A stretch of 64,000 nt of DNA from Arbacia lixula (lineage: Eukaryota > Echinodermata > Echinoidea > Arbacioida > Arbaciidae), in the NCBI GenBank assembly GCA_963669155.1, contig OZ022588.1:3127728-3191727 (forward strand), in the 5' to 3' direction. A model generated the notes under the pieces. That model worked only from the letters and a program-made list of their open reading frames with translations, did no database searches and had not been told where the DNA came from. The translations under genes and the position numbers were made by a program. Below are positions 1-46,072 of this stretch, piece after piece; within the stretch, counting starts at the first letter, position 1, and each line of letters opens with the position of its first letter.

Positions 1-1021
1 CCACTTTCCCTTAGGCGATTTCGTAGTTCAGGAAGAGAGTCAATTTAGTGAAATTTGACTTTCATTTAACACAAAACTGAACACTTTCATGGAAGGTTAG
101 CTGCATGAATTGCTTTAATAAATCAAAATAAACTCTATTTATTTGATTTTATTTCCTATGAATATCACCTTTAAGGAATAACGGTGTAGTTGTATGTGAA
201 GGATAGGCAGCCGTTTAAACAGGCGATACTTTGTTGAGACAGATCATGACGAATACCACATTTCATCGTCCTCGATATTGGATCAGCGACAATAATCGTG
301 ATAAAACTCAAATGCCATCATATCACTGCAAAGGGACATTGTATCGTCAGCAAACACAATATCGTTGGATGTTTGTATCACGAGAGATATATGCGAACAC
401 GCAGCGTATACCCGAGTGAATGTGATCGTGTATACCTGTCGAGGAACATTCTAGACATGCTGAGGATCATACTACATGTATAGTCACGCTAGGCCAATGT
501 GAACAAAGCTTGAACTTTGTCAAGGGATTTCAGGCCAACCGTCGGGTTTCATGAAATACGAGACGTCTCCCCGACATTCGACCTTTTTCATGCAAGCTGT
601 GTTTTTTTTTGTGTGTGTGTTTTTTCTCGAATGATTGGGGTGTAGTTCTACAACTGGATACAAAGTCATGCACTGTACTGTATTTATGTAACTATGTTCG
701 TATTTCGCATGCCAATTTCCATAAGGAATATTAGGACCTAGCCATGTATAACTTTTCTTGAATAAAGAGACGGTTGATCAACAAACAATGTACCGAGTAT
801 GACACCCCCCCTAGCACTCTATGGCTGTAGTTGTACAATTTCGAACAGAGGTTACAGTCCAAAGATAAGTTCATCTTGAGAGAGATGGACAAATCTAAGA
901 AGCAGAAACTTTAACGTGGTTTTGGAAAGTGAATGGCCCGATAGAAGGGTCATTATGCGAAGCAGTAGCTGAAAATCGCTCTTGACTGAACAAGAAGTAT
1001 GGTACATGTAGTGCATTTTAC
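1..1021. other. Left edge: probable AGPAT intron, no exon recognised
   Basis: No coding exon could be supported here on either strand. The AGPAT gene on the minus strand must continue leftward, because its fourth exon ends in a good donor at 1016-1021 and motif IV of the family has not yet appeared. This stretch is therefore probably intron. A short T/GT-rich tract lies near 601-625. Confidence 0.4.
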
Positions 1022-2798
1022 CTGAGCGAGTACGGCCAAATTAAAAGCACCCTTCTTGAATTGAAGCAAGGGTTCCTCGGATCTTTTCTTCAGCATGAGT
1101 CGTCGGGTGCCCTCGGGGAAAAACCACACCCGATACTATAGTAACCATGAAAACAAAACAAACGAATTATTTTGATAGGCACGATTATAATTAATCAATA
1201 AAACAATTTACAGCTATGATATGTTGGAAAATTGGAATATTCAATCACTATAATTATATTCGTGAAGCAGTAGAAACAAGGCCTTGTGGGTTAATATGAT
1301 TACAGTTTAAGGTTTATTGCAATCACAAAATTAGTTGCCCTCAATAGAAAGCAGAAGAAAACAGAATAATACAGTCTTAAAATATTAGACTCTAGTTTTA
1401 AAGTTTGGATCAGAAATATCAAACAGCCTGGTAGCCAGGCTACTAGAGTAGTCTCCGCATCAGCCTTTGATGTATTTTTTAAAACGTATTCTCATGTAAT
1501 TTGTGTACTTTGGTTCATGTCAATGCCTGTCATTTAGATAATAGACTATATACATGATATATTTAATATATATTGAACCGCATGTTAAGGGTCATCGCAC
1601 CTCACAAGCCATCGGCTTTCTGGTGATACCTATTTGTTCAGGAAAATTGCTTATTTTGTTTTGGTAAATGAATAATAGAATTGAAATCCATATTTTCCTG
1701 ACCTGATGCCGATGGATCGCATCCACGGTGCTGCGGAGCATGTCCTTGGCGCTGTTCGTGTTCTTCCGGTCGACGAAGATGGTCCCCGAGAGGATGAGAC
1801 AGAGGCCGAATGGTCCCGTGTACTTCATCACCCTCTTCATGATGACCACGCAGTTTCCTGGCCAGATCTCCTCGTGCATCATAACTGATGGTATAAACAT
1901 GATAAACAGCTGGTAGACTGTAAGAAAAATTAAGCGCAATTCTCCACACCGCATAGAGATAGAGGGTACTGTGTAAGTCCCCCATGAATACGCCGCGCAG
2001 CGACCTTCGAATATTTGTCATGTCCGCTTCCGGTGTCAGACACTAGTGCACTTGATCGGAAGCGGACATGACTGCAAACAATATCCGAATCTGACTGGTG
2101 ACGTAAACGGAAAACACAGATTATAACTACGAACAATTTACAGCGCAATTATAAACAAATCGAGAACGATGCTCATGAGAGAGACAAAGAGGAAGGGACG
2201 GAGAGAGAGAGAGAGAGGGAGAGAAGACATACAGTATATACATACACACGTACACATTCACAGTCACCCACAGACAAACTGATATGGTAGCAAAATTACG
2301 CTACTCTAAGCATTCAAACAGTCTTAAAGAAAATAGAGTAGTAGAAAATAGAATAGTAGAAAACCTAGAAACTTACTTCTGGCTACTGTCCAGAAACTCC
2401 AGCGGTCTTTTGTAAGAAGAGTCTGGACAGTAGCCAGAAGAAGCCTGGAGTTCGCCGACGAAACGTCGCTTACAATAATACTTTTTTCCGACTTATAAGT
2501 GATAATTTGCATCGAAGTAGTCTTAAAGCAACAGTGTGTTTTTTCCCGTCTTGTTCCTTGAAATTGCTCCTTAAAATTTGCTCATCCGTAGAAACAGGCA
2601 ATTATCTCAGTTTATGTAAAACTTATTTCGACACGATATTTCGATAGTCACGTGGTTCTGCGTTCAAGCATGGACACTACTTCAAATGGTTCAAGAGGCA
2701 TTAACCTAGTAGTCTTAGCGGTGTGATCAGATAGTGCATGTAGTGTGTCAACACTAATTGATTAAGGGTACTGGAGTAATCTTTTATGTGTGTGTGTG

Positions 2799-2836
<38 letters not shown>

Positions 2837-4376
2837 TCCTTTTAAATTGACCGATCCCCGGTAGAAGTATTACAATTTTCACATAGTGTAAACAAAGATA
2901 ATGCGCCATAAATAATCAGGTTGCGTGAAAGCACGAGTTCATGCGCGATCACTGGATAAGAGTCATAAGATTGTTTCAAGGAATGCATTAAGCCCATCAC
3001 AGAGGACACGAATTTGTCACGATTCTGAAGTCGTATGGGCCTATTTGCATTTTTCTTCTATTTGCCTTTTGCATAGATCCAATGACTTGATCTGACTGAT
3101 CGGGAATAATCGTGCGCGCTGAACTACGTTTAAATGTGAGCGGTTTAATTAAAAACCTAACACCGTGTGAACGCAGCTTAAGGGTGTGTTCACACTGGAG
3201 AATTTTACCTCTGCCGCTTGCCGTGGCCATGATAATGACCCTTATAACTGACCCTATAAACACGTAGATCCAGCCCGCCAACGAAACATTGGTGTCAAAA
3301 ATGTGACGATTCTGGGCCCTATAACTTACCGTTGATGATAGCTTTGCTATCAATGGCTACTTCTATGGAAACCTTGAATTTGATGCGATGTTACCATGGT
3401 AGTTACCATTGATGACAGAGTTACCATTAATAGTAAGTTTTATGCACCGGGGCCTGGTATTAAACATACTGGGGCTGTCCAGCGAGCTTTGGTGGTTACA
3501 GACAATCACGCAGGGTCCCTCGGGATAGGGGCAGCCCTTCCGCGTTATCCTCACTCTGCATAGAGGAAGCTGCAGGAACTTGCCGTACTTTATCAACCAC
3601 CTGCAGAAACAAAATAGTCACGGGAGAGTTAGGATATTAGAGGATTCCATAGGTTATAGTGCGAACCCCAGGTGCTGTGGTGATATGATGCATCCTATAT
3701 TCTTTTTTCCCCTCTTTTTGATTACCCTTTATTTTTTTGTTTTCTTTGAAAACAAGACTTTCTTGTCTTGAATTATTATCCCATTTCCTGCTCGCTATAG
3801 GCACATTACTGTAACAATGATCACCCTGCTTCTCAGATATCCATAATATTCATTGATTGACCCAGTGGAGTCGAAAGGGAATAAAGGTGATGCTATGCCA
3901 GCCGTACCTCGGCAGTGCTTGTTTCAAACACGTCGCTCTGCTACATGTGCATTGATCACCCAGCCGTTATTCACCTGTAAATCCCTGCACTTATTTATTA
4001 ATTATAAAGAGAAGCTTTATATCTGAATGTCAGAACTCAAGAGTGTTTCCCCTCATTCCTAACACACACTAGACTGTGAAAACCAAGTTGGCTCACTGCA
4101 CATCTTCATGCCAATGGTGACGAGAGAGTAGAAACTCGTGTGAATGCAACGAGCCTATGATTTGTTATGACGGAAGAGGTGGGGGGGGGGGGGGGAGTGA
4201 GGGAGGGGGCGGAATGTGAATCATAAACATGGGGGACACCCTCTGAAGGATCTCCTGTGAGTAAGATCAAGGATGGATGGAACGCAAGTTACGTACGATG
4301 AGCCATTCTATTCCTAAGCTGACTCATTATTTTTATTTGCCCGTTCGCTATACTCATCCACTACTACTTCTATTGT

Positions 4377-4435
<59 letters not shown>

Positions 4436-4554
4436 ATAATAATAATAATAATATGACTACAACTACTAATACTACTGCATGGACTAATAATACAAGGACA
4501 ACTAAATATTATTATTGCTTCGTAGTAGTTTACCATTACTGCTGCTGCTGCATG

Positions 4555-4586
<32 letters not shown>

Positions 4587-5292
4587 GCTACTTCTATATA
4601 CTACTTCAATCAACCTTACTTCTACTTAAGCTACAACTTATGTTTCTATTAATGCTAAATATGTTACTCATTGCGAATAAATGGCTACTGACAATCGTTT
4701 GTCTCGCAATGTAAGGTAAACGGAATCGAAAAGATCACGACGTCTCGTGCGCCGCTGCAACACTTCGTCAGGTGTGATACAAAATTTACTTACTACAATT
4801 TTGTATTACGGCAAACTATTTATACCCCTACTGCTACTGCTATTTAATCTAAACAGTGCAACTAAATCACATGACTACGACTGCTGCTGCTTCTACCACT
4901 ACTAACATTACTTATTCTACTGACTAGCACGTTATAATACATTATACTGCGATGACGACGATTTCCCCATTCTGTTATTACTGTGACGAGAACTACCTAT
5001 TATGGTCGTTCCTTATTTCCATTCTTGGAAACGAACAATAATGTTGTGTTCCCGGGTGCCACACATATAACAAAGCTTACCACGCATTCTTGGGGCTTCC
5101 CGGGTTGAATAGCATGAACGGAATACACAATACTCCGAAGACGACGTAGGAGAAAAATAGGAGGTAATATCTGGCGTAAAATGAGCAGGCTTTGCGTCTT
5201 GAGGCTACAAACATACAGGCTGAAATCACCAGTGCATAGATGAGAAGAGTTCGCATCCAGGATTGCCATGACGTCGTGGATTCCGTTTCCAT
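1022..5292 (-). CDS. 1-acyl-sn-glycerol-3-phosphate acyltransferase, AGPAT1/2 type (3' end outside window)
   Basis: Lysophosphatidic acid acyltransferases make phosphatidic acid from LPA and acyl-CoA in the ER membrane. Four minus-strand exons join in frame: 5081-5292, 3470-3600, 1703-1884 and 1022-1135 (213 codons so far). Each junction is GT-AG and the phases match (2, 1, 0). Exon 1 starts at ATG 5290-5292 and encodes hydrophobic N-terminal segments (about residues 17-65). Motif I NHQSSLD (NHX4D) is at residues 106-112, GTIFVDR (block II) at 148-154, and FPEGTR (block III) at 181-186. The last visible exon ends KKGAFNLAVLAQ, which in relatives immediately precedes the VPIVP block, so the C-terminal third lies beyond the left edge. 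Exon b sits only 14 bp from an inverted-repeat element in the next intron. Identity as an AGPAT is strong; AGPAT1 versus AGPAT2 is not resolved. Confidence 0.9.
2019..2070. repeat. Short perfect-arm palindrome
   Basis: CATGTCCGCTTCC and GGAAGCGGACATG flank a loop of about 26 bp. The right arm plus the following ACTGCAAACA recurs at 14265-14283. This is a small dispersed inverted repeat inside an AGPAT intron or its flank. Confidence 0.5.
2373..2444. repeat. Inverted repeat, 18-bp arms
   Basis: CTTCTGGCTACTGTCCAG and its reverse complement CTGGACAGTAGCCAGAAG face each other across about 30 bp within an AGPAT intron. Confidence 0.55.
2788..2834. repeat. (TG)n-(TTG)n microsatellite
   Basis: TG repeats run directly into a perfect TTG run inside an AGPAT intron. 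Confidence 0.9.
3006..3130. repeat. Degraded copy of the GACACGATTCTG element family
   Basis: It shares GTCACGATTCTG-AGTCGTA and CCAATGAC-TTGATCTGACTGATCGG with the better copies at 5630-5745 and 55514-55828. The termini are eroded. Confidence 0.4.
3313..3456. mobile_element. MITE-like inverted repeat, GTTGCATAAAACTTACC family
   Basis: The left end GGGCCCTATAACTTACC and the right end GTAAGTTTTATGCACC-GGGGCC are imperfect inverted repeats. Related copies lie at 12672-12826, 13941-14099, 19671-19829 and 59643-59803. It lies in an AGPAT intron immediately beside a 5' splice site. Confidence 0.65.
4378..4586. repeat. (CTA)n microsatellite, interrupted
   Basis: Long runs of ACT/CTA with (AAT)n interruptions (4378-4452 and 4555-4586) lie in the first AGPAT intron. 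Apparent Ser-rich open frames here are repeat artefacts. Confidence 0.9.
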
Positions 5293-5629
5293 ATTTGCAA
5301 AAAATTAGAGTGCGTTTCTTGAGAGAGTCGATTGCCGCTCTGTAGTTACGTACATGAAGCAAGAGCAGGCTGCTTGCAATTGGTGAGAATCATGTAACAG
5401 GTCGTTAAGAGTTACTACATGTACTTCCCCCTGCTCGCTTTGTGAGTGGACTTGACCCCGTCCGATCGGACTGCGCACGATCACCTTCCCGTGGAGCGAT
5501 CATTGACCTGGGGAAGTAAGAACCAAATTATAGTGATTAGTATGCGGGGTCCCCCTATTACAGTATAAAGGTGGCCGCAGAGGGAATGATGTCGCCACTA
5601 TATTCAGCAGTTGTACGGATGTACGACTG

Positions 5630-5745
5630 GAAGTGTGACGTCACCTTGCACAAATCCAATGACCAGGTCTTGCGAATCAGCCAGTCGCAGAATCATGGCA
5701 GAATCATACGACTGATCGGATCGTGTCGTCTTCCGTTGGCCCAAG
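5630..5745. mobile_element. GACACGATTCTG-family element, uninterrupted copy
   Basis: It contains AATGACCAGGTCTTGCG and CAGCCAGTCGCAGAATC and ends at ACTGATCGGATCGTGTCGTC. It matches 55514-55828 except that the latter has a second palindrome inserted after AATGACC, so this copy serves as an empty-site reference. Confidence 0.55.
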
Positions 5746-6639
5746 TGCTTTTCGAGTATTATTGAAACGAAGAAGGCGATGTCATAAGTCTTCACTGATT
5801 TAGGCAATGTTTACCCACTGATCTCTGTTAGTGGGGAGATCAGTGTACCCTTTGACATGTTTGAGAAGCAGACAGGCTACTGCCATTCTGTAGACTTAAT
5901 CACTTGTGCAAACACGCATTGATGACAGAGAGTTGTATTATCTTGGACTTCCGTGCATATCGCCTTTTCATCGAAGAAAGATGTAGAAAGCGTTTTCCAA
6001 TAAGCCATTTTGCCATGAATTCACAACTTTTCCTTTACGTACATGTACTTACGCGTTATTACATTCACCTGTATTTTGTGGAACGCACTCTGAATATATA
6101 AGTTGTTGCTACTGAGCTTACATCGAACAAGCTTTGGGGTTACCATTATTAACGTGTTGTTTGAATAACATACATGCGATATGAATACATAACGAAAATG
6201 GTATATTGGTAGAAATCAGACATGAACCACAATGTTGCCAATGCATCCAAGCATTGCCTTCCCGTTGCCTAGAAACATGCAATGCCATGTTTACGATGTA
6301 CACAAACCTAATGCGTGAGTACCATGATGAACGAACGTAGTTGACTGCAACTAGGTCAAATAACATGAATAATGCGCAGTATTAGGGATCCAAATTATTA
6401 TAGGATTGAGTCGTCGAAATAGCAGAATATGCCACCCGCCTGGTGATAGTCGCGTTAATGATGAAAATTTAGGCAAATCGAGGGGGTGGTGAAAATCGCG
6501 TTGCCTCAATGAATACATGTTAAACAGTGTATCAAATAGGAAGGCATGAGTACAGCAGCTATTGGTTCGTTCTCCGTGTGTGCACCTGTGTTGTCATTTT
6601 GCGCCAATAACACACCCAAATCCCGTAGAGCAGGAGTCA
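5746..6639. other. Intergenic, no supported gene
   Basis: The short open frames on both strands show neither family resemblance nor splice context. I see nothing further that I can support. Confidence 0.4.
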
Positions 6640-6890
6640 ATTTTACACACAGAGGGTCAACATAATTATATATGCACCTGTCGAGATGAATAGACCATTT
6701 CCGATGTGTATGCAGTTTGTATTGACGTCGTTCAAACAATACGTTAATCAATGGTAACCCAAAAGCTTGTCACAAGGTTTGTGCGAGGAGTAACAACTGA
6801 TGGATTCAGAGTGCGGTCCATCCATTCAAACTGAATCACGAAATACAGGTGCATGTAATAACGCGTCACCAGGCAGATAAGGGGGTAAGA
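6640..6890. repeat. Dispersed repeat (AAGCTTGTC...CAACTGATGGATTCAG family)
   Basis: Shared blocks CCAAAAGCTTGTC, ACAACTGATGGATTCAG, CTGAATCACG, ACAGGTG-ATGTAATAACG and AGGCAGATAAGGGG recur in variant form at 12850-13040, 31210-31400 and 32585-32815. It contains no recognisable coding sequence. Confidence 0.5.
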
Positions 6891-6950
6891 TGAGAATACA
6901 TTACGAAATTGGATTCTAAGTGTTTAATGTGCCACGGTAATATTTTTTTT

Positions 6951-7298
6951 AAGGGAATATACTGTACTGGGAAGACAAAAAGGTTGATCATGAGTAATAT
7001 TCTTACCAATGGTTTTAAATTCGTGTATTGTCCATTTCAGAAACTTCCTGGATGTGATTTGCCATCAAATGATCCACATTTGGAGTAATTAGTGATTACT
7101 CCGTATATTCGGGCCGAACATTTTGAGGATTTGTGATGTAATCACCAATTACTCCAAACGTGGATCATTTTAGGGCAAATCACGTTCATCGAGGTTCTAA
7201 AATGGACAATACATGAAGTTAAAACCATTGGTTAGAAGATTGCTCATGATCACCCTTTTGAAGGCTTTTTGTCTTCCCAGTACAGTATATTCCCTTTA
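6951..7298. mobile_element. 348-bp near-perfect palindromic element
   Basis: The left end AAGGGAATATACTGTACTGG is mirrored by CCAGTACAGTATATTCCCTT at the right end. The arms stay alignable for about 150 bp each (for example ACCAATGGTTTTAA, TGTATTGTCCATTT, TGATCCAC-TTTGGAGTAATT) around a short centre. There is no coding capacity. It fits a long-TIR non-autonomous DNA element. Confidence 0.75.
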
Positions 7299-7380
7299 AC
7301 ACACGTACACGCAAATGTGCGGGATCCTCACTGAATCACGTTAATGATCTATTTACAAATGAACCAGATGATCGCGAACA

Positions 7381-7627
7381 CTGCCCTACTCTGACAAAAG
7401 GAAGCAAGTGACAAATCACTCAAACTGGGTTATTGGTATTCTTAGATTGTACCCAGGCCTCCATACGGCCAAAATCTGGACAAGATATATTCATCTTGCT
7501 GATGTGAGATATTCAATCTAACATTATATGGTTTTGCACTGATGTCAATGTAAGTGAAAGACACATTTTGCTAATTTACAAGAAAAAATCTCTCTTGTTG
7601 GTTGCTTCCTTTTGTCAGAGTAGGGTA
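7381..7627. mobile_element. MITE-like element, CTGCCCTACTCTGACAAAAGG family, copy 1
   Basis: The terminal inverted repeats CTGACAAAAGGAAGCAA and TTGCTTCCTTTTGTCAG are perfect, and the outer CTGCCCTACT matches AGTAGGGTAG with little change. The internal sequence aligns along its whole length with 48299-48547. A solo end lies at 16703-16721. Confidence 0.8.
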
Positions 7628-7636
7628 GAACAGGTA

Positions 7637-7795
7637 AAGACTACCGCAAGCGACGCGATACGATACGATACGATACGACTCTGCGACTGGCTGAATCGCA
7701 GGACCCGGTAATAGGATTTGTACGAGCAGGTGAACTTACATTTACAGTCGTAGATACTTACGAATCGCGGCAAAATCGTGTCGCCTTCGTGGGCT
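7637..7795. mobile_element. GACACGATTCTG-family element, divergent copy
   Basis: It carries CTCTGCGACTGGCTGAATCGCAGGACC and AAAATCGTGTCGCC-TTCGTGG, i.e. the reverse-oriented core of the family, with a local GATAC pentamer run at 7657-7677. Confidence 0.5.
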
Positions 7796-7799
7796 ATAA

Positions 7800-8890
7800 C
7801 CCCCTCCGTGCCATGTGCCTTTTTCACAAGTAATACACGTAAATCCCATAGAGCAGCAGTTTATCTGGCACACGAAGAGTTAACCGTGCACGTTGCAGAA
7901 TGAAATGTACATGAACGTACATGCGAGAGGTCGTAATAATTTGACTGTCGGTAGAACAATTGCATGCAGGTTCGATCGATATTCATAATTATGGTGCGAT
8001 GTTGCTCGATCGTTATCGCGTTTACCATGACCTGTCGATGATTAGGAATGTCAACGTGTGTTCTTGAGATCATGTGGCAGATCAGTGGCTTATATTCATT
8101 CATTCAGTCCCACCTCGCACTTTTGGGGCTTGTGAAACAATGTGCCGCACAAAAAAGAGAGTTGTAGGTTGTGAATGGCGGCTGCTATTAACACTGCGAT
8201 GCATACGCGTCACGTCCAGCTAGATGTTAACAAATATGATACGTAGATTCCATGTCACAGTCGTAGCATGACGGTAGAGGATTCTAAAACTTTCTGTTAA
8301 TGTACGAAGTGTTCTTCGACACATCTGATTAGTTCCATTGTACGCCTATCTTATTTGGCTGTGTATTGCCAAACGTTGTACACGGAACTCTGGTTTGATG
8401 CGTTCAATCATACCGCCTGCATATTGCAGATTATGTCGAGTGGGATAGATATAACACCAGAAGTCCTTGACATTTATCAGTTTGCGATTTCCGTTAGCAA
8501 TTGAGCTGATAACTGTCCTAGTTATACGGGACCGTGTGCACTCAAGTCATTGCTGTTAATCCTACTACGAAATTTGTTGGCAATATATGGCTAATATTTA
8601 TCAAGTATGATAATGTAATTCGTAATGTGTGCGAAATACGTGCATGTACTTCGCATTCTGAGTTTGAATAGCAAATAACATATCCACCTGCAGTGGGGTA
8701 CAGATGTTGTTTGCTCAGTAAATACGGTGTGGTGTTATCCAATAAAGCCACAGCTGTTGTTTCTTACTACAAATGGCACATCCTAAATATGACCATGATA
8801 ACATTAGCTTTGAATGCGGTATGTACACGGAGACTTTGTAATCTTCCCTTTGCGTTCTTGTGATGGCATGTCGAAATGATTGAAATGTCA
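7800..8890. other. Intergenic, nothing supported
   Basis: No exon, RNA gene or clear repeat was recognised here. Confidence 0.4.
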
Positions 8891-32815: not shown

Positions 32816-34426
32816 CTATTCACTTTACATTAACGCCGGGAGGTACGTTTGACGGAATGATTGAAATAGAGAAGGAACGAAAAAAGCACATTCCAAATAA
32901 TGTAAGCGACTACTCATTATAAAGAGCCGGATGTGGAAGTTGCCAAAATATTAGGTATCAAATACAATGTCATGTAGTTCATATTACTGTTCCACACCCA
33001 GGAAAAATGGAGTAGGGCGTTCATTGATGTGTATGACTCTTTCAAATCATCATACCGACGTACTGTAGTATGAGCATAAATTATAATCTTCTATCAGCAC
33101 AAATAATGCAAACATTCGAGCACCATGCAATACCATTTCAATCGAGTGATTGAAGTGACGTAACGTGGCCTCCAGACTGTTTGACATTTTTTTTTTATTC
33201 AACATGAAATTAGAGATAAATGTTCTAAAGCTAGTCACTTTGCCATTCTTTTTTCAGTCCGTTCAAAATGTTGTGGGATCAGGAGAAATTTAGAATTGTT
33301 AGTCTAATGCAGCGACCCCCCCCCCCTTTATTTTTAATACTTTGGTGTAAAAATGCCCAACAGCCTGGAAACCAGGCTAGAATTCATGTGACAGTGTGAA
33401 CCTATCTAGCACGGAAGCACGTATAATATACGTGCTCTATTATAGTATTCATGATCATTCATTCATGTTTGATGTTAAGAGCGGGAATGAAGTATGGACG
33501 AAAAAATACTAATTTTGCTAATGAAATATACATATATATATGCAAATAATGGATGATCCATAGTCGATTAACTGAGTAATCGATCATTGTCAATGGCAAA
33601 CAAGAGAGGATGGGGGTGTATATAGGTAAAAGAGAGATAGAGACAGGGACAGAGACACGGAGACAGAGACAGAGAGAAACAGGAAAGGGGAGAGAGAATG
33701 TTTATGTAATGTATAAGCGTGTATACGTGCGTGTGTTTATGTATATGCACGTGCGGGCGAAGAAGGGATTGGAACTGGAGGAGAAGAGAGAGAAAGTTGA
33801 AGGGAGGGGTACAGACAGAAAGATGCAGATCAAGAAGATATAACGAGTAACAAAAGAGAGATCGACATGGAGAGTAAAAGCGAGAGATATAAAGAAATAC
33901 GAGAGAAAGAGAGATAAACAAATAGAAAGAAATATAGAGAGATGATTTGGAGAGAGCCAAGAACCCATATTCCGGGAAAGGGGAAGATTTATTTTAAAAA
34001 CACAACGTGCAATGTGTAAACCAATCTATTCAAAGCCTAAATAAGTACTCGTAGACTTTGTCGACTTTTGGGAGCATTGATCCCCAAACATGCCAACTTT
34101 TCCAAGTTCACATGTTGGCAGGATTAAATATTTAGCTAAATAAGATCGATCACGACAAATACGGTGGCCTATCGGAGGGTGGGGGGTTGGGGGGGGGGGG
34201 TACGCATCATCTAGCGTAGTGTGATATCCGGTCCATTAAGCTTCGTCATAATGGTGAAATCATTGACCTTACTCATTATTTCATTTCGAAATTAAATTTC
34301 CTATCTATTCTTATGATTTAACAAGTATGGAAATGCTTAAAACTATTCAATCTTTGCGTGCAACATACGGATTCATTCACAAGTAATAGAGCCATTTTGT
34401 CTAGCATGACGAAGGACTAATTTTTT
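32816..34426. other. Intergenic, purine-rich, no gene
   Basis: GA-rich low complexity at 33605-33945, C run at 33317-33327 and G runs at 34180-34200. No exon is supported. Confidence 0.4.
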
Positions 34427-35591
34427 TTAATCTGTGTCCATTAAATCCGATAGGTATTTGTCCGCAATTTCGAGGAGCTCAGCTTCGATCAAGGCCCTCC
34501 TGAGCTCCGAGCGCTGTTCCTCAACCCGAATTGTTTCCTTCCATCGCTGTATCATGTTGTTCGTGCCTTTACTGGTCACTTCTCCGTCCACTCTGTTGGT
34601 CTTCAGATATCTGTTTACATCGGACGATGAGATGCCGAGCTGAAGTCCGAGTTCTGTGATCTTGTCGTCACTAGCTATAGACCGGGCAATGCCGAGAATT
34701 TCTTTGTCGCTGAGACCACGCGAGCTTTGGACAGAAAATGACATTGAACATAGAGCAGGGTGAATAAAGTTTTTGAAAAAAATCGATATGCTGCAAGAAC
34801 AGGTTTTGGATCCATCATTTTCATCTCAGCTGCTCAGTGGGCCCTGTCTTAAAAAGATTTGCTATTGATCGCAACCGGACTTGCTATTCATATCAATCAC
34901 GGCTCCTGATAAGATGGGACCATTTTGTTTGGCCCGACCAGATGGGCCATTAGCTCTTGATTCATTGACGTGGGCCGCAACTTCCATTATTCCTATATCA
35001 CTTTGCATACACTGCGTAAAATGCGCTATACCAACAGCGACATTTTTTTTCGACACGTTTTTTCATCAGTGTTCATATTACTTGTCTGAAAGGAAGATAT
35101 CTTAATATAACGTTTCCAGTGATTTTTATGGAATATGATGCGGAAGCGTGTGAGATCGCAATTTTTGTACTGCAACTTAAAATCACGGTTAGAGCCTTTT
35201 TGCCATATTGTAACAATATTCCTCGATTGAATCTTTATAGATACATCGTAGGTATTACATGTCACAACTGCGCAAGCATATGTGGTGAGGGTATTTCCCC
35301 AAATTATTCTGCGCATGCGATTTTGTTTATACGTCAAATCCAGGCAAAAATCATACAGAGAATCGGCGGCATTGAACATATAAGATCAAAAAGAAAATTT
35401 TTGTAAAAGCAGGCATTCTTGTGAGACTAGGAGGAGACTGCAATGAATCTGCATCAATTGAACGGCTGATGGTACTCCATGTATAATAGCTCCATGCAGG
35501 ATCGTAAGGCGTAACGGGAAAATAACTCCACCACACACAATTTCTCGTCGCCATGCTAAGTACATGAACTGCCGACTCACCATTCCGCCAT
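34427..35591 (-). CDS. DEATH-domain-only protein, divergent partner of the adjacent NLR
   Basis: Two minus-strand exons: 35581-35591 (ATG GCG GAA TG) and 34427-34724, joined in phase 2 across GTGAGT and TTTTCTGTCCAAAG; 102 residues. Exon 1 (MAE) and its phase mirror exon 1 of the NLR (MAEGGSTSNT, phase 2). Exon 2 is a DEATH fold of about 89 residues beginning GLSDKEILGIARSIASDDK. It is about 79% identical by eye (70 of 89) to the NLR DEATH exon, including NMIQRWKETIRVE. Where the NLR exon has a donor after ADLYIP, this copy reads on through DLMDTD to TAA 34427-34429, so the protein is DEATH only. DEATH domains act by homotypic assembly. An adaptor, inhibitor or decoy for the neighbouring receptor is inference. 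A single-exon start at 34742-34744 is the alternative. Confidence 0.75.
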
Positions 35592-36519
35592 GTTGATACA
35601 ATGCAGCAGTCGTACTTGTCGCACCAAATAAACAGTAGAATACACGTTACTATCCTCCTTTCAGATCAGATATTGTATCTATACATCGATGATAAGACTT
35701 TCGGCATAATCCGTCACCAGTTACTTGCAGATATTACTTGCTTTCGCGATACGATTCAAGAATCGATGTGTGCCAACATGTAATATTGTTCACTGTCTGG
35801 TAGGCTATGTCTTGGTCACGTAATTGACGGTATAGTCCTTAAAGAACAATGCAACCCTTATATCAATTTTGACAGAATAGTAATATGAAAATCAGAAAAA
35901 AAATATAGGCAAAAGCTTGAGGACGGAAAAGTCACGATGACATGCCCAGGGGTCCGATTCATTTCTATCGAACTTCATGCGACTGTTTGCATAGTTTCTT
36001 GATAGTTCCTTAATAAATGTACATGCCTCGATCGATTAATAACATTATGATCACCTTCATCACGACGATCATATACCTTTAAGTAATGGATTCCGGACTT
36101 TTGACATTTGAACTTTGATGATATCTAATCCAGTGGAATGTACGGCTACATATTTCAATAATACGCATAATATATCGAGATTTTTTATAACTGCCCTGTT
36201 CGGACTTTGATTGGGAGTCATTTATTATATTTGAGCAACGTGAACATTGTTCGAACGATAGATGTTAAAAGATAATTCATAACTCAAGGCTGAGTGATGC
36301 AACTCAACACCCTAAATCAATGTTTAACAGCTTTGACCTTTGACATTTAGAACACCATATGCTGAGTTGCACAATGCCGTGAAAACCTGCTATTGTATGC
36401 TGTGAACACTAGAAACCATATCTTGTCTTCTGTGGCATCATTCATTTTCAACAGCCAGAGGATTAAACAGAGTATTCTTTTTCGGGACGTTGGTTACAAA
36501 TAGAAAAACGATTCCCAAG
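35592..36519. promoter_or_regulatory. Divergent intergenic region of the DEATH-only/NLR pair
   Basis: 928 bp separate the two start codons, which point outward. No TATA box or known response element could be assigned with confidence. A shared control region is inferred from the arrangement only. Confidence 0.4.
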
Positions 36520-39500
36520 ATGGCGGAAGGGGGAAGCACAAGCAACACACGGTGAGTGCAATTAACTGGCTTTGTTTTACTCTATTAAAGTGAACGTTGT
36601 AAAGATCAAAATGGGTCTGCAGAATGGTTTTAAAGTGGGGGTTGGGGACGACAACACAACATGCATGAAATAAGGGCACTTTCGCGAGGAATAGGGGCAC
36701 CTTTCAATGGTTAATATGCACACATATAATTGCTGAAACGTTGGCCAATGTAATACAATTGCATTAGACGTAAGCTTTGATTATATATGTTACAACAATT
36801 TCACACTCACACATGATTTGCTACGTCATTCCAAGCGTTCCTCTAAATTCTCAAATCAGCACATAATGATATTGAGTACTGATTATTCATTATGACGTCT
36901 TCCTAAGTTGAAACGGTTCGATGCACGTCACTCATTCACAAAGGCAACACTTTTAAAGAGGTCTTTTAAAGACTTTATAGCATAGTCAAATGCTGGTCAA
37001 TGAATTGCATGTTCTGCTTGTGCCCACATGCATTAATGACACATCAAGACTTAATAGGGTTTAGTTACTTCTCACTGTCAGACGCTGTTGGTTTGTCTTT
37101 AATAGCTTGTATACTTGGGAAGCACTCGCTATTCCGAAGGTTCGTTATTCCGGAAGTCACGCGACAAATGCTCGGATTAACGAACCCTATTTCGTTTTCG
37201 GACTAACGAACATCGAGGTATAGGCAATTTACGTGTTTCGGAATTACGAGCCTTCGGAATAACGAACCTTCGGAATAAACGAACCTTTGGAATATCGAAT
37301 TGTAACCGTATACTTTGCATGAAACCGTACATTTCAATCGAAACCTGAAGTATATTATGGAGAGACGTGGTCGTGCCGCTATGATTATGATTGTACTCAT
37401 CACCAAACTAGACGTTGTAATCATCCTTGCGGCCATGAAAGTTAGAAATCAGCAATTAGTTCGAGGTATGAATCATTCGATTGGTGGCGCAAAGGTTCGA
37501 TGAAGGGTTTCAGATAAAAGGTATGTGAGATACCTTGAATACGGAGGTTACAAATTCATTTGGAATCAAAGGTAAATAGGTACTAGTTTCACATCTAATT
37601 ACTGTCTTTGTCCTGGGCAAAGACACATTAATTGCGACTTGAGCATGTTGAGTGACAAGAAAACGTAGTTGCGTGCATGCGTTTGTTAGCATCCGTGTAT
37701 ATGGCAGTGTATGGGCAGGTGATGAGTGTGTCATTAACACGTCATCTTTTCTTTATGAAATTATTTTTTATTCCGACCTGAATATAATATTTGTAGCGGA
37801 AATGAATGATCAAGAATATCTCTTATTTTTTCACAAAATTATGTAGATAATATTACACCACATACATTATGTACATGATGACTTGAGAACGCCAAATCTT
37901 GTTTAGTCAACCGAACCAATTTCTTTAACCTCTTCTGCTAACAGTCAACATGGTCTAAGCGACAAAGATATCCTCGGCATTGCCCGGTCCATAGCTAGTG
38001 ACGACAAGATCACAGAACTCGGACTTGAGCTCGACATGTCATCGTCGGATGTGAAGAGATTTCTGAAGACCAATAGGATGGACGGAGAAGTGACCAGTCA
38101 GGGCACGTACAACATGATACAGCGGTGGAAGGAAACGATTCGGGTAGAAGATCAGCGTTCAGCACTCAGGAAGGCATTGATGGAAGTTAAGCTCATCGCA
38201 ATTGCGGACCTATACATACCAGGTAATGCCTTGGTCACAATGGTGATTTGCCATTTGGTCCAATCCCAGTTGGTCCACTCACTATTTCGTCTACCATCAC
38301 ATGCTGATATGTATGGGTTAGGGTAGGGGGTCTGGATTAGGTTTAACAGCTGAGGTTATGGTGTAGATTAGACTTAGAGTTGATAAGTTGATAAGTTAAC
38401 CCAGTATTTTAATCTAAAAAGGTATTTTTAAGGGGCTCCTTGTAGACGAAATGGTGAGTGCACCAACTGTGATTGGACCAAATGGCAATAAACCGTCACA
38501 ACCGGTCGTCCACGTTTCTGTGTCTGGTCTGCGTTGGATTTCGGAAAAAAAAACACTGCGTCAAACGCAGAGAGGTGCACGTTTTGGTTCATGCAACGTA
38601 GGAAGACGCAGTAGGTTATTCAATAAATTTTTATCAAGTAAATTGCGTTTGGTTTGGGGGCTGGCCATTTTTTTTTCAGGCATTATAGGAACACGCAGGA
38701 GTTGGCACGTAGCTCAACACAAGCTGCGGACACGCACGTGCAAAAGTACGCACGACTGGTCGTGACCAAGATTAAGGGAAGGGGGAGAAACCAAACCGAT
38801 TTTCATCATCGGGTACGTGTTCTACAGTCTAGACTATGCACTTTCTAAAGGTTTAAAAAGTCGGTTTATTTGACAGTTTAACACGACAATAAACATGCTT
38901 ATCACCTTTTCACACTTCCAGATGTTCTGATCCCCATGACGGCAAGGCAGGTCCGGCAGACCAGGGAAGATCTTATCAACCATTACAAGGAACATGACTT
39001 CAAGATCAAGACCTCTCCTCTGGATCCTGATGCCTACATCGACCTTGATAAGATGTACACCTGCACCAGTTTTAAGCTCGTTCTTGACAACAACAACCGG
39101 AGAAAGATGAAGACGGAGATGAAGAAGGAACAGAACCAGATTCCCATTGAATACGAAGGTATCATAAATTACAAGGTCAAAGGCAAGAAGGTTCTGAGGA
39201 TGGTGTGTGTAGGCGAAGCTGGAGTCGGCAAGTCCACCCTACTGGCGAAGATGGCTCACGACTGGGCCACGGCGAAGAGCTTCACGGATATCACCCTCCT
39301 GTTCCTGGTGCATCTTCGGAAGACGGAGGGAGTGCGATCGCTGGGCGAGATCGTGAAGGCGTATCTGTCGGCGGCTAATGAGGTCACCCCCATGCAGCTG
39401 GACGATTATGCAAACAACAACCCGGGAAAGGTACTCTTGCTCCTGGATGGGCTGGATGAATTCCGAGGTGATCCGAAGGCTGGGGACGACGAGGGCATCG

Positions 39501-41814
39501 TTATGGATATCTTGCGGCTCAGCAAGATGGCGTCCGTCCAGGTCATTGTCACAACACGGCCATCGAAACTCGATCTGATCAGCAAGGATAGCCAGCTCTC
39601 CAAAGTCTACTCCGTCGTTAAAGTTGAAGGTTTCAGGCCTGAGCACGTAAAGGAGTACATTAAGAAGTTCTTCAAGTCCGATCGGATGGCCGGACGAGAT
39701 CTTGTGAGATTCGTTGAGGACGAGTCTACCCTTGTTGCTGAGAATCTAGCACCATCTCCCTTCTTCTGCGCATTGCTGTGTCACTTATGGAAACACGAAG
39801 AGAAAAGAGAAACAGTAGCCAAACTTCACACCTTCTCCCAGCTCTTCTATGCACTGGTGGTCCACCTAAAGAAACACTTCCTCTCTAAGTCGAGTGCAGA
39901 CCAAGATGGACTAGACCTTTCGCTTTCTAAGATTGACGAATGTTTCGAAATCATCGGCAAAATGGCTTTAGAAGGGCTCTTGAAAAGGCGTCTCGTCTTT
40001 CCCAAGGACGATTTCTGGGAGTGTGAGGAGGCCCTGAACGTCGCGCTTGAAGTTGGAGTCCTGACTGTAACCAGAAGGGTTGTGCCTTGGGAGGTGGAGG
40101 TGAGAACAGGCAAACGGTATATCGAAGAGGTCTGTTATCCACACAAGCTCCTTCAAGAATTTCTGGGGAGCATCTTCCTCGCGTCGGTTCATCGGAAGGA
40201 CCCTGACAAGTTCATAAGGCTTCTCAAACAAAAGGTGCTGAAAGATTACCTGGAGTTCCGGTATGTCCTGTACTTCCTGGCCGCATACGATCTGGAGCTG
40301 GGAAAGCGAACGATGAGGGCACTACAATCAAGAACATTTCCCAGAGACTTTGTCGTAGACGTCGCCTTTGAGTGTCATCAAAAGGAAGCTATTTCACCTG
40401 TGATGAGTGGTCTCTTGACCCGTGACCCAGGAGTGGTTCTCACCCCAAACATGCACAACCACACCCTATCTGCATACTTCTTCATTCTGGACACATTTCC
40501 CAAGGTGGTGAGTGAATGAACCAATATCTTTTGGAGGCATGTCATCACTAGAAACATTCAATCAACCCACAAAGGAATTACCAAAAACATGAACCATCAA
40601 CTATACTCTTTCTCTCAAATGTATTGAGAACTTTGGAAACCTAGCATGCCATGCGTTCACAAGACGTCGGTAAGGCTTTCAAAGATGGCGAGTCTTTTTG
40701 TCATTGTCTTAGTCGAAGTAAGGAAACGTTTCAACATTCTTTTTGTCAATCTCTAAACGCTCATCGGTTGACCTCTTGGTCTTTAAATTTACAGGAAAGG
40801 TTCAGCTTCTGGAGGACAAACCTCGGCAGGACACTCTCAAAGGCTGCAGCAAAATGTGTATTCTCGGCAGAGAATATCAGGGTCTTGTCGATAGCTGAGG
40901 CAACCTTTCACGAGGACTTTTACTTCTCTATGGTCAAGAAATCTGCGTCTTCCAAGGTTTGTTGACTTACTTTTTTAAATTGACGGAAAGAGACACTGAA
41001 TGACCGATAAGACCCCAACGTATCCAGTGTAGATATCATCTCATGTTGTAGCTATTCAAAATAGTAATGTCCCGTTTTGATTCGATTAGATCGAGCACGT
41101 GACCCAGCGCGACTGCGTGATCAGTGAGACGGGGTTGGCCCAGGAGAACTATGCCAAAGCGCTCTGTGCGATGCCAGAGCTGAGAGAACTCGAGATGGAG
41201 AACGTATCGTTCAACAAAACGGACTTCTTCTATTGGCAGTTTGTGAAGAGCTCGGCCAACTCACATGTAGGTGTTTATCTCACTTTGATTAAGCCTTAAT
41301 ATGCCACATGTGAATTAATTTACCATCAATACATACCAATCTTATAGAGTAGGATTTTGTCTCGTACACACATGGTGAATTACCATTATCATGCCATTGT
41401 AGACATGTGTACAATATTTTCAAAATTACGTGCATTTTTTTTTATAAAGAAAACGTTATTTCATAAAGTATTTACAGGGAGTTTTCCTTACAACAAAATT
41501 GTATACGACATCGAGGCATTTTTGCACTGGTAATAAACATTATTGCTAAAGGGTAGCATGGTCTTTGGCAAAAAAATGAGTTTAAGCACAATGTCCGGAG
41601 GGATTGTCACAACATACGGATGTTAGCCTTCTTGAAATGATAACGACCCTGGTTTAACATAAACCTAATGCTAACCACCCTTGTACATCATGCACTATTT
41701 GCGTTTTATCCCTCCTCCCAAGCCAAAGAAGGAATAAGACAGACATGGGGTCAACGTGAACCTTTGCAATATACATTGTACCTGGTATGCCTACTTGTTA
41801 TGTATCATGTGTGC

Positions 41815-41852
<38 letters not shown>

Positions 41853-42391
41853 CACAATCGAGCTCAGATAGCGAATAGCTCAATAAAAAAGATGATTTTG
41901 ATCAAGTAGAAAGATCAAAGAATAAAACACGAATCAAAGCAAAGGGCAAGCATAGGGCTTAATTTCAGATTTCCCCCTTTTTGTTGATGTACAGCTGAAG
42001 ACAATTTCCATCCGTCGAATGTATGTGAACAGTCGGGCACTTGATGCATTTGTCACAGCGCCCTCTATCCGCGAGCTCTCTTTACACAAGATCAGGGTTG
42101 ATGGCTCGGATCAAGTTGACGTACTCATGAAACAGGTGGGCTATATTATTCATTTCTTCCGCGTTTTTGTTACTCAACAGCTTTTTTTTCATCACCTAGG
42201 ATAAAATTTGATTTAAGGAACGATTTTAGTAATAAAATCGATCTGGAAATTCATTGACTTCTATTTCAATCAATAATATCGAAAACAATATGAATCTTGT
42301 GGACGAAATGTTGAGTATAATATTCTTCTCCTGCGAGTTTATCATTTTATTTTTTGCATATGCATATATATATGTAGATATAGTCTATGTG

Positions 42392-42439
<48 letters not shown>

Positions 42440-45400
42440 TGTGTGTGCTCCAATTGCATTCATGTTTAAACTATGCTGGTAGAAAACATATTTTTTATCC
42501 ATATCATGGGCAATGAAAACTCGTATCACATGACCATCTTTTTCTCTAATCATGATCATTACAACTGCATTATTGGCAATAAAAAATAGGTAGCATTTTA
42601 CGTGGAAACTTCAGTCTCAATGAAGTTAAAGGGGTGGTCTATCCTAACGTCAAGTTGGTTTTAATAAAAGCAGAAACATAATAGAAACATAATAGTAAAG
42701 GTGTGACGAAAATCCGTCAAAGGATACAAAAAAGTTATGATCTTTTGAAATTTCAATTTTGTAACGCCACGTGCGAGGTGCTCTCCCATTATGTTGTGTG
42801 GTAATTGATTACATGTATTGCACTGTTTCTGTTTTTGATGAAGGATTTTTTTTTTTACTGCGAAGAGGTATTTATGTCAAAACGTGTACAAATAAAAATT
42901 ATGCATATCCTTTGAAGAAAATTGACATTTTCAAATAAAATGTACACATTTGGAAGAGAACCTCGCACGTGACGTCACAATTTTTTTTTTTGAAAAATCA
43001 TAATTTTCTTTTCCTTTGACGAATTTTCATAGAATCTACACCAATATTTTTTTCGTTCATATTTCTGCTTTTCATGAAACCAACTTGATTTGAAGATAGA
43101 TCCAGTTATTTTCAGGATGACTGTGTCTGGTAAAGTGGGTCTCTGATTGCGAACTAATCACAGACCCGGACAAAGTCTATCCGTGATCAAAATGTATCCT
43201 GACTTGCTAATAACTCTGATGGAATTAATGATTAGCCTATGCCTGTTTTCTGGTTGTACTCTATAGCCTACTGCGCAAGTGTGTCACGTGACAAAGCTCA
43301 CCATAGATGACGAGTCCCTACTCGCACTGAACCGACTCAACTTTGCCGCTAAGACTCCAATGATCAATGACGTCACTTTGGAGTGCTACAGGTAAAGGTA
43401 TACATCAGGCTGCATCGTGTGCAGAACCGTTGCTGCATAATTGCCCATATATGCACGTTTTGTCAGACTCGGGGGGAATCAGTTATTCATGTTTTTGCAG
43501 GCAAAGGTCGTTTGAGATATATATGATAGGTAGGAAACATTATGTATACAGTGCAATGAATATAAGGCCAGTGCAAGTCGGGGTACGGCGAGAATGTGTC
43601 TTCATCGATGACATGTGTAAAGTAAATATTCAATTCCATTCGAAATTATCACTCTATAGAGATTATACTATACTTTTTATTGTATGTGTTTACATTCAGG
43701 AAAAAAACTAAAAGTTGTTACTCTTGATTTCAGCGGGAGTTACAAAATAATGGTTCAACAGTGAAACGTTTAGATTTACAGATATAATATATTGATATGA
43801 AGTACTTAGAGTCATTCTGAATTTACAGTTTTCATCGTCAAATCACATTACATTGTTGATAAATGTGATAAAATGTTGCTACATTCGCTACGTTTGCTAC
43901 ATTTGCTATGTTGCTACTGGGTGATATTGGAAGGCAAACGAGAGAAAAATAATGTAAGAGACGAATTCATCTAGGACTGCGCCAAATTTGATTGACACTC
44001 AGGGATGAGCTTACCGGTGACGTCATCGACTCTTTGAAGTTCCCTCTCCTTCAGAAGCTGGCCTTGATGACGTCATCTCCCAATGGAACGGACCTGTCTG
44101 AGTCGGACCCCCTCGCGCGCGCTTTGGCCACGTCGTGGCCCGTGCTCGCCCGCCTCGAGATTGCGCGCATCTTCATGGACGATGCGCAGATAGAGACTAT
44201 TCTGGGGAAGGTGCGCAGGCATCGGTATCTGAAGTCGATCAGGTAAAGGACCGTACCTGTATGCTGCCATGATGTCGATTGCTTCTAATGTCTTCGAGAA
44301 CAAGAAAATGACAAAGATGGGGAAGAAAATATTAATGTTTTCATTTCCAGTTTTCTGTCTGGAGGGTGGTTTCTTCAACTATGAACAACTGATGAACATG
44401 GTCTTTTATTACGCCGACAAAATTATTAAGGGTATCTTCACATTTTGTCCTGGTTCATTCAGACCATGTCCGTAGATTCTGTAACTGCTATCACTGAGGG
44501 CCATGGATGATACATATTACCAAAACAATGGTAAAATGGACTAGAGTGGAAAGAAGGGCATGGAGAAGTACTATAACAAGGGGATTTTAAGAATGAAAGA
44601 GCAAGAAAGGGAAATTATAAAGGATAATGAAGAGAACGTAAAAAGGGAATAAAAGAAGTAAACAAAAATAAATGAAGATGATGAAAAAGGTGAATAAGAA
44701 GACGATGTGGATAAAAACATCCATACAAATAACACCACCACCAAAATCACCTTCACTACTATATATATCACAACTACCAAAGTTATCATCATCATCAACG
44801 TAATTGTTCTTCCTGAATTATGTGACTCATTGGTTACTATGATTACCAGGCTCGACAGATGCTACGAAGGGTGTGATGATGGCGACGTCATAGACACCCT
44901 CCTGGATGAGATAAAGGAAGAAGGCCAAATCGACATCGAAATCATCAAGGCTAGCGATGAGGACTTGGTAAGAGTTACATCTGTAGTACTCTGTTCAGGC
45001 AACCGCAGACGATACGATCCGAAGTCATATCACATTATTTCCTGTAGATTTTTTTTCTCCTTTTTTTGACCCCCTTCACAACACTTTTAAAAATAAACTT
45101 TTGGCACTAATTGCGGTCATAGTCAGTCCTGGGGCCTGTTTCTCCAAGATCGAGTTGCTATCTATAGCAACTTTCAAATCAATTGTCAAGTTGCTATCCA
45201 TTGCAACTCATCGTATCACAAATCACCACTGTTATCTATTTGCAATCAATTGTATAGTTACGATCAATCCACACAAGCTACGATCAATATCAACAACAAG
45301 TTACAATCAATATCGATCGTAGGTTCTTTATGATACAGCTTTATGATCGATATCAATCATACGATCAATAGATCAGACGTACGATTGATCTATCGATCAT

Positions 45401-46072
45401 ACGATCAATCGTAGCTCTTTGTGATACGGGCCCCCTGGAGTAATAGTTGAGACGTGCTAAAAAGTAGAGAAGAGCACTATGATGAGATTGATTTTTTGAA
45501 AGTCTCGGGGTGCATTAGTAGCATGCTGTCACCATGGCAACCCTGTACACAACCGTGTCAGACCTATCGGGAATCATTGAAAAGCACAATCGAACATTGG
45601 GTAACCTATATTCCTAGAGCAACAATCATGTTGAGAGACAGACTGTTAGCAGTGCTGGATTATGTCAACGCGTGTGTTTATTTTCATTCCTTTCCCAAAT
45701 GCATGTTCCTTTTCAAATGAAATCGCCAACATTACGTTGTGTTTTTGTATTCAGTTGAGAGTTTGATTGCATGGCATGGTATTCCTAAGGAATTCGCTCG
45801 AACTCTGACGTCTAATATACCATCAGTGCCTGGGAGAATCGAGAAACCGAAGTGAGATATTTCAAATTTATTATCCTCTTACGTTTCAGATGGTCAGTGA
45901 CAGCGACGATGAATACGAACGCGGTCATGTAGAGTCGTTTGACAGCGTGCTTTACGGAGAATTCGATAGCGGTGACGAGTTTCATGACAACGATGATGAA
46001 GGAGATAATTACGATGACCTTGGTGATGAGAGCGTCGATTCTGATGATGACGATTCAAGTGACGACGAATGA
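36520..46072 (+). CDS. NLR-type receptor: DEATH-NACHT-LRR with acidic tail
   Basis: Intracellular pattern-recognition NTPase of the NLR class. Ten exons join in frame: 36520-36551, 37945-38222, 38922-40507, 40795-40956, 41090-41266, 41995-42135, 43267-43391, 44003-44242, 44850-44967 and 45890-46072, giving 1013 residues. The DEATH domain spans residues about 12-103. The large exon 3 holds NACHT: Walker A GEAGVGKST (201-209), Walker B LLLLDGLDEF (275-284), sensor VIVTTRPSK (311-319) and a winged-helix-like PHKLLQEFLGSIFLA. Exons 4-9 (residues about 633-953) encode degenerate leucine-rich segments, such as MPELRELEMENVSF and APSIRELSLHKIRV. Exon 10 is a Ser/Asp/Glu tail of 60 residues. Phases agree at every junction when the open segment 38680-38812 is skipped. 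No signal peptide or transmembrane segment is seen, so it is cytosolic. Confidence 0.85.
37119..37300. repeat. AACGAACCTTCGGAATA short-unit repeat
   Basis: Several imperfect direct copies of TTCGGAATAACGAACC and one inverted start (ATTCCGAAGGTTCGTTATTCCG) lie in NLR intron 1. Confidence 0.7.
38680..38812 (+). other. Exon-like open segment out of phase with the NLR
   Basis: Bounded by TTTTTTTCAG and CGG|GTACGT, it encodes 44 residues without a stop (HYRNTQELARSSTQAADTHV and onward to TDFHHR). It looks like an amphipathic linker. It needs phase 2 in and gives phase 0 out, while the DEATH exon ends in phase 1 and the NACHT exon starts in phase 1. Inclusion would break the frame; skipping preserves it. 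It may be a dead exon, an alternative exon or a site of sequence error. Confidence 0.5.
41811..41850. repeat. (GT)n microsatellite
   Basis: Perfect GTGTGT run in NLR intron 5. Confidence 0.9.
42390..42449. repeat. (GT)n microsatellite
   Basis: GTGTGT run with two T-rich interruptions in NLR intron 6. Confidence 0.9.
42627..43115. mobile_element. AAAGGG-TAGTTCACCCTGAAAT family palindrome, divergent copy
   Basis: Left-arm marks: GACGAAAATCCGTCAAAGGAT, GCCACGTGCGAGGTGCTCTCCC. Right-arm marks: AACCTCGCACGTGACGTCAC, TTTCCTTTGACGAATTTTCAT. Found in NLR intron 6, with eroded ends. Confidence 0.75.
45131..45434. mobile_element. MITE-like element, GAGTTGCTATCTATAGCAACTT family
   Basis: GGGGCCTGTTTCTCCAAGATCG at the left; CTTTGTGATACGGGCCCC at the right; AT-rich interior of GATCAAT/CGATC words that fold back. 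Related copies: 56880-56992 (partial) and 63744 to the window end. It lies in NLR intron 9. Confidence 0.7.

Follow-up and report, generated by a model that had tools for sequence, protein, structure and literature searches.

The window, a 64,000-nucleotide stretch of the genome of the echinoid Arbacia lixula, contains two predicted genes that run away from each other: a minus-strand gene for a stand-alone DEATH protein and a plus-strand gene for a DEATH-NACHT receptor. Both gene models were read from DNA alone, and all positions below are those of the window unless another contig is named. The start codons are located at 35591 (minus) and 36520 (plus), and the 928 bp between the two ATGs (35592..36519) agree with the head-to-head arrangement given in a preliminary description of this DNA. 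Bidirectional promoter pairs are limited to start spacings of about 1 kb. Measured from ATG to ATG, the spacing of this pair falls within that limit, and the intergenic stretch is a candidate bidirectional promoter.

The divergent gene pair

The minus gene opens with an 11-nt exon (ATGGCGGAATG, 35581..35591, minus strand), which encodes MAE..., ends in phase 2 and is followed by the donor gtgagt; the same donor is found on the second haplotype contig, C39. Exon 2 (34427..34724, minus strand) encodes the DEATH domain, as assigned by the gene model and a profile match to Death domains, and closes with YLSDLMDTD and the stop TAA. The 306-bp frame yields a product of 102 amino acids that consists of the DEATH domain plus a short end, without any other domain, and the earlier designation as a DEATH-only protein is borne out. 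An alternative start (MSFSV...) is present on both haplotypes in the open frame directly upstream of the exon 2 acceptor. A candidate poly(A) signal, AATAAA (33988..33993, minus strand), lies about 433 nt past the stop codon.

The plus gene remains open across 10 exons (36520-46072) with consistent phases and encodes 1013 amino acids; AG and GT are present at all internal exon edges on both haplotypes. Exon 1 (36520..36551, 32 nt) encodes MAEGGSTSNTR and ends in phase 2, as does the first exon of the minus gene. Exon 2 (37945..38222) encodes the DEATH domain and exon 3 (38922..40507) the NACHT domain plus the region behind it. The NACHT domain was identified in frame behind DEATH by Pfam on the open frame (PF05729, E=1.9e-22), which upholds the DEATH-NACHT architecture proposed earlier, and its best solved relative in PDB is NLRP3. 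Exons 4-6 (40795-40956, 41090-41266, 41995-42135) and exons 7-9 (43267-43391, 44003-44242, 44850-44967) show a degenerate LRR-like pattern by eye, while Pfam recognized no LRR in them at E<=1; the LRRs of the preliminary description are therefore retained as a visual pattern, but not as a Pfam assignment. The last exon (45890..46072) encodes an acidic tail, in which D or E accounts for 28 of the 58 final residues. Short inverted repeats resembling a small hairpin element (TATTCCGAAGGTTCGTTATTCCG and kin) were observed in receptor intron 1 (37126-37298), and a 47-nt inverted repeat with 94% complementary arms spaced by 147 nt in receptor intron 2 (38248-38488). At the gathering threshold, Rfam gave no match anywhere in the window.

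The donor behind the receptor DEATH exon is gtaatg, in the context CCAG followed by GTAATG. The corresponding minus-strand position reads TCGGATTTAATGG and lacks GT, as previously noted; the statement that the minus gene "lost" this donor goes further than the data, since a donor may never have existed there.

Single DEATH sequences gave neither a Pfam Death match nor a meaningful PDB match. In contrast, a 22-row profile of the genome's own DEATH copies, from which near-duplicates, the C39 alleles, one row interrupted by a stop and three matches that had no locus were omitted, matched solved FAS (E=1.6e-5). The PDB listing at E<=1 held 37 sequences, and 36 of these were Death-domain proteins, namely FAS, FADD, RIPK1, CRADD, THOC1, PIDD, TNFR1, TRADD and ankyrins, the last of which also carry a Death domain; the exception was an eIF4E. 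The predicted DEATH model contains six helices at low confidence (mean predicted local distance difference test score, pLDDT, 61.5), and the first three Foldseek matches of this model were FADD, RIPK1 and Fas/FADD, none of them at E<=0.001. Judging by the profile, both exon 2 products are Death domains.

Relation of the two DEATH exons

The DEATH cores of the two genes are identical at 70 of 89 residues (78.7%), in line with the value of about 79% estimated earlier, and at 231 of 267 bases. The base differences are distributed over the three codon positions as 8, 7 and 21. The non-synonymous (dN) and synonymous (dS) divergences were 0.10 and 0.33 by NG86 and 0.12 and 0.25 by YN00. Neutral simulation with an equal number of changes gave an expectation of 24.8 residue changes, compared with 19 observed (P=0.015), and in 69% of 20,000 neutral runs simulated at the distance of the two paralogues, a stop was gained. 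The differences are unevenly placed: 11 of the 22 residue differences between the two domains fall in the terminal segment that starts with predicted helix 5 and spans about one quarter of the sequence, and predicted helices 1 and 2 together contain a single one, with helix borders taken from the low-confidence model. At the base level, 18 of 36 differences lie in the last third.

The similarity stops near the exon edges. Outside exon 2, the two genes share only 9 bp (ATGGCGGAA) at their starts, and nothing else significant was found in common between their introns or upstream regions. A DEATH tree, in which 6 of 28 inner branches were well supported, placed the two exons of the window in a clade of their own (support 99/99) and left the direction of copying between the two genes undecided.

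A simulated 856-bp intron was still detectable in 20/20 runs at d=0.32 with either indel rate. Detection with few and many indels was 20/20 versus 6/20 at d=0.45, and 13/20 versus 1/20 at d=0.6. Given this detectability, the limited similarity outside exon 2 suggests either that the duplication took place earlier than the point estimate implies or that exon 2 alone was copied or homogenized. Gene conversion that made the two DEATH exons alike is a possibility with arguments on both sides. The confinement of the likeness to exon 2 and the full detection of introns at d=0.32 favor conversion, as does an identical run of 51 nt between the C39 DEATH-only gene and the window receptor (P=0.015, uncorrected, in one of six comparisons). 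However, intron detection drops at the two larger distances, especially with many indels, and the fourfold estimate is loose, with 10 of 34 sites differing. Furthermore, identity within haplotypes (86.5 and 86.9%) is no higher than identity across them (85.8 and 87.6%), a comparison that lends no support to very recent conversion.

The second haplotype and other DEATH loci

Contig C39 (137 kb, of which 40 kb was compared) is colinear with the window from 16.5 to 48.8 kb at about 84-96% identity per block, and we interpret it as the second haplotype. The same divergent pair is present there with intact frames and splice sites, so that the pairing of a DEATH-only gene with a DEATH-NACHT receptor stands on both contigs. 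The C39 DEATH-only frame has its start, donor, acceptor and stop as in the window. The C39 receptor allele is likewise open, with 1013 codons and the same splice sites. Receptor intron 2 of C39 contains about 7.9 kb of extra DNA that is absent from the window haplotype and includes, opposite to the receptor strand, a 1428-codon open frame that appears retrotransposon-like by eye (C39:48001-58000, 2298-6581).

The DEATH-only frames of the two haplotypes differ at nine sites, seven synonymous and two non-synonymous (dN 0.008, dS 0.109). About three quarters of random changes are expected to be non-synonymous, and at most two such changes among nine would arise with a probability of 0.0007-0.002, varying with the transition rate. 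Because synonymous changes prevail in this way, the frame is probably not a dead copy but a constrained gene. This constitutes the main new evidence, albeit from a small sample, and relaxed selection on the DEATH-only copy, a possibility raised in the preliminary description, is disfavored. The receptor alleles differ by 16 synonymous and 18 non-synonymous codon changes (dN 0.008, dS 0.023); five of the 18 non-synonymous differences are in the acidic tail, which forms its own exon.

Mismatch between the haplotypes was 3.0% in DEATH-only exon 2, 7.5% in its intron and 11.3% in its 3' flank. Across the 928 bp, it rose from 1.9% over the 259 bp adjoining the minus gene through 4.7% in the central part to 7.7% over the 259 bp adjoining the plus gene. 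Minus exon 1 lies inside a 135-bp stretch that is identical between haplotypes (35546-35680). Downstream of the DEATH-only gene, 291 bp are also identical (33855-34145) and include the AATAAA, which may reflect conservation of the 3' end or a tract shared by the haplotypes. As signs of conservation these runs are only suggestive, because a 274-bp identical run also occurs in receptor intron 2. The low haplotype divergence of the receptor DEATH exon was discarded as evidence of selection, since the intron behind it is equally alike.

The genome searched comprises 607 Mb in 590 contigs. With the receptor DEATH domain as query, at least 29 places were found at E<=0.001, and with the DEATH-only protein, at least 33 at E<=0.01. 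A same-strand NACHT match lies within 30 kb downstream of 11 of these 33, with an identical result for 27 or all 78 NACHT rows. Omitting the C39 allele and counting two C3 domains once leaves nine DEATH-NACHT loci. On C3 (C3:13590001-13600000, about 4472-7843), two consecutive DEATH exons precede a same-strand NACHT and may form a DEATH-DEATH-NACHT gene. Another 26 DEATH loci were read, and 8 of them open with MAE. Thus, as far as these loci indicate, the MAE common to both genes is typical of the family and not special to the pair, although it does support minus exon 1. The matching first exons stressed in the preliminary description are accordingly reduced to MAE, phase 2 and the 9 bp mentioned above.

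Other DEATH exons in the genome also end in a stop just past the domain, as in the single-exon MAE-start frame at C12:8020827. This frame belongs to a second divergent DEATH arrangement, at 8.014-8.021 Mb of C12. Here, a DEATH-only frame (C12:8014001-8024000, 6815-7111, plus) faces a three-exon DEATH-linker-DEATH gene model (844-3133 of the same interval, minus), of which an upstream exon was not found. None of the genome-wide NACHT matches lies within 30 kb of the C12 pair. The tree, with its 6 well-supported inner branches out of 28, joined the DEATH domains of the C12 pair neither to the window pair nor to each other, and thus gave no sign that the two pairs are related.

The mitochondrial COX1 of this genome contains 12 in-frame TGA codons. 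The best scores among solved COX1 proteins were mammalian-type. In an alignment with one solved mitochondrial COX1, both AAA codons (residues 122 and 203) stand opposite Asn and all three AAG codons opposite Lys, while the three AGA codons stand opposite Ser, Ala and Lys, one each. The reading of AAA as Asn characterizes the echinoderm and flatworm mitochondrial code, and together with the mammalian-type scores it makes an echinoderm the likely source, in agreement with the stated origin.

Possible role of the DEATH-only protein

The DEATH-only gene is best read as sharing its origin with the receptor DEATH exon, by analogy with the CARD-only and PYD-only proteins of primates. We tentatively propose, with a probability of roughly 0.45, that its product is a dedicated regulator of the adjoining receptor, acting as a decoy or capping subunit. 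The receptor would oligomerize via its NACHT domain, whereby its DEATH domains assemble. The DEATH-only protein could join this assembly by homotypic contact; as it brings no effector, it would cap or dilute the assembly and limit signaling. The clustering of DEATH differences from helix 5 on would fit a protein that keeps some contacts and changes others. The 928-bp stretch could plausibly drive transcription of both genes, and the divergent layout would permit a cell that arms the receptor to make its brake as well. Folding of the 259 bp that precede the minus ATG was no better than that of shuffled sequences.

Several points weigh against this proposal. A motif scan detected no kappaB-like GGGRNNYYCC site in the 928-bp stretch. 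A divergent DEATH neighbor within 10 kb was found at only one of the nine DEATH-NACHT loci, that of the window, showing that the arrangement is not general among them. The allelic constraint test is based on nine changes and presupposes that C39 is an allele, and the helix borders were taken from a model with a mean pLDDT of 61.5. Finally, the sequence is compatible with either an inhibiting or an amplifying lone DEATH domain.

The main rival of the brake is a seed that strengthens the assembly: the DEATH-only protein may be a positive adaptor that extends the receptor DEATH assembly to a downstream DEATH protein. The high identity of the two domains favors co-assembly, and a protein such as the DEATH-linker-DEATH product modeled on C12, whose gene is itself divergent to another DEATH-only gene, could provide the bridge. 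However, the DEATH-only protein has no second domain with which to reach an effector, and a pure DEATH domain could presumably only lengthen, cap or dilute an assembly; we regard the seed as unlikely.

An ordinary local inverted partial duplication, which left a weakly expressed or recently dead minus copy unlinked to the receptor, would account for the adjacency of the two genes and for the restriction of the arrangement to one of nine loci. This explanation is rather unlikely, as both haplotype contigs preserve the minus frame with its splice sites and stop, the allele changes are mostly synonymous, and most neutral simulations acquired a stop at the paralogue distance. It is decidedly improbable that the minus gene is an independent DEATH gene serving a separate function, such as one in a different death-receptor pathway, and that the receptor took its DEATH domain from it. 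The occurrence of other DEATH exons that stop directly after the domain, the undecided direction of copying, and the restriction of similarity to exon 2 and the 9-bp start are consistent with such a history, but the pair forms a tight clade and is still adjacent, favoring a link to the receptor.

The proposed regulator resembles known death-fold genes. CARD16/COP, CARD17/INCA and CARD18/ICEBERG adjoin caspase-1 in primates; COP (97 amino acids) and INCA (110 amino acids) contain little beyond one death-fold domain, encoded mostly by exon 2, which is 97% and 81% identical to the caspase-1 CARD, respectively, and decoy function has been reported for the CARD-only proteins (PMC3775265). Like the minus gene, they are built around one death-fold domain closely related to that of a signaling gene. 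However, they carry CARD and derive from a protease, whereas the window pair has DEATH and an NLR as the related gene, and the available part of that review describes no head-to-head NLR layout for them. POP1 has two exons with a 580-bp intron and its domain in one exon, is 64% identical to the ASC PYD and lies about 14 kb from ASC, while POP2, derived from the N-terminal domain of an NLRP2/7-like gene, is a single-exon retrogene on another chromosome (PMC3775265). These differ from the minus gene in that the domain is PYD, the parent of POP1 is an adaptor and POP2 is not adjacent. Leaving the direction of derivation aside, the structure of the minus gene fits this type of decoy, with a single death-fold domain identical to that of its neighbor at the 70 of 89 residues given above; inhibition would follow by analogy. 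The earlier view that no established animal equivalent exists was therefore too strong. In the part of the review available, death-fold-only regulators are primate and viral genes (PMC3775265).

Other paired systems are more distant. The fungal HET-S/NWD2 system places a STAND gene directly next to a partner gene with a motif that corresponds to the receptor N-terminus (PMC3321046), but there the motif is an amyloid and the partner a toxic effector, whereas the DEATH-only partner in the window has no effector domain. Paired NLRs in plants can be arranged head-to-head, with a divergent layout and a possible shared promoter, and in Sordariales, 13 of 225 two-NLR clusters are head-to-head (PMC12258605). 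Both partners of a plant pair are NLRs, whereas in the window only the plus partner has NACHT: a tblastn search of the 64 kb with the receptor's NACHT exon matched only that exon itself and nothing on the minus strand, and the genome-wide NACHT search gave a single row in the window span, on the plus strand. The sensor/executor pair of the plant type suggested earlier was accordingly rejected. DEATH-NACHT-LRR (NLRD) receptors occur in sea urchin, amphioxus and sponge; they share the domain order of the plus gene, and no DEATH-only neighbor is described in the portion of that source available (PMC11508797). Among the papers listed from one open-access library, none was an account of such a DEATH-only/receptor pair in animals.

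If a constrained DEATH-only gene regulates an echinoderm DEATH-NACHT receptor, brakes or partners derived from the signaling domain of a receptor would also arise in NLR-rich invertebrates. A bolder reading takes the receptor and its dedicated DEATH-only subunit, expressed as one unit from one divergent promoter, as an animal counterpart of paired NLR loci, and assumes that such pairs arose more than once in echinoderms, with the C12 arrangement as a second case; we consider this improbable. The pair offers a small, testable two-gene unit for how large receptor sets are held in check. At 18.0-21.0 Mb of C17, away from the listed DEATH matches, lies an array of 29 NACHT matches, 23 of them on the plus strand.

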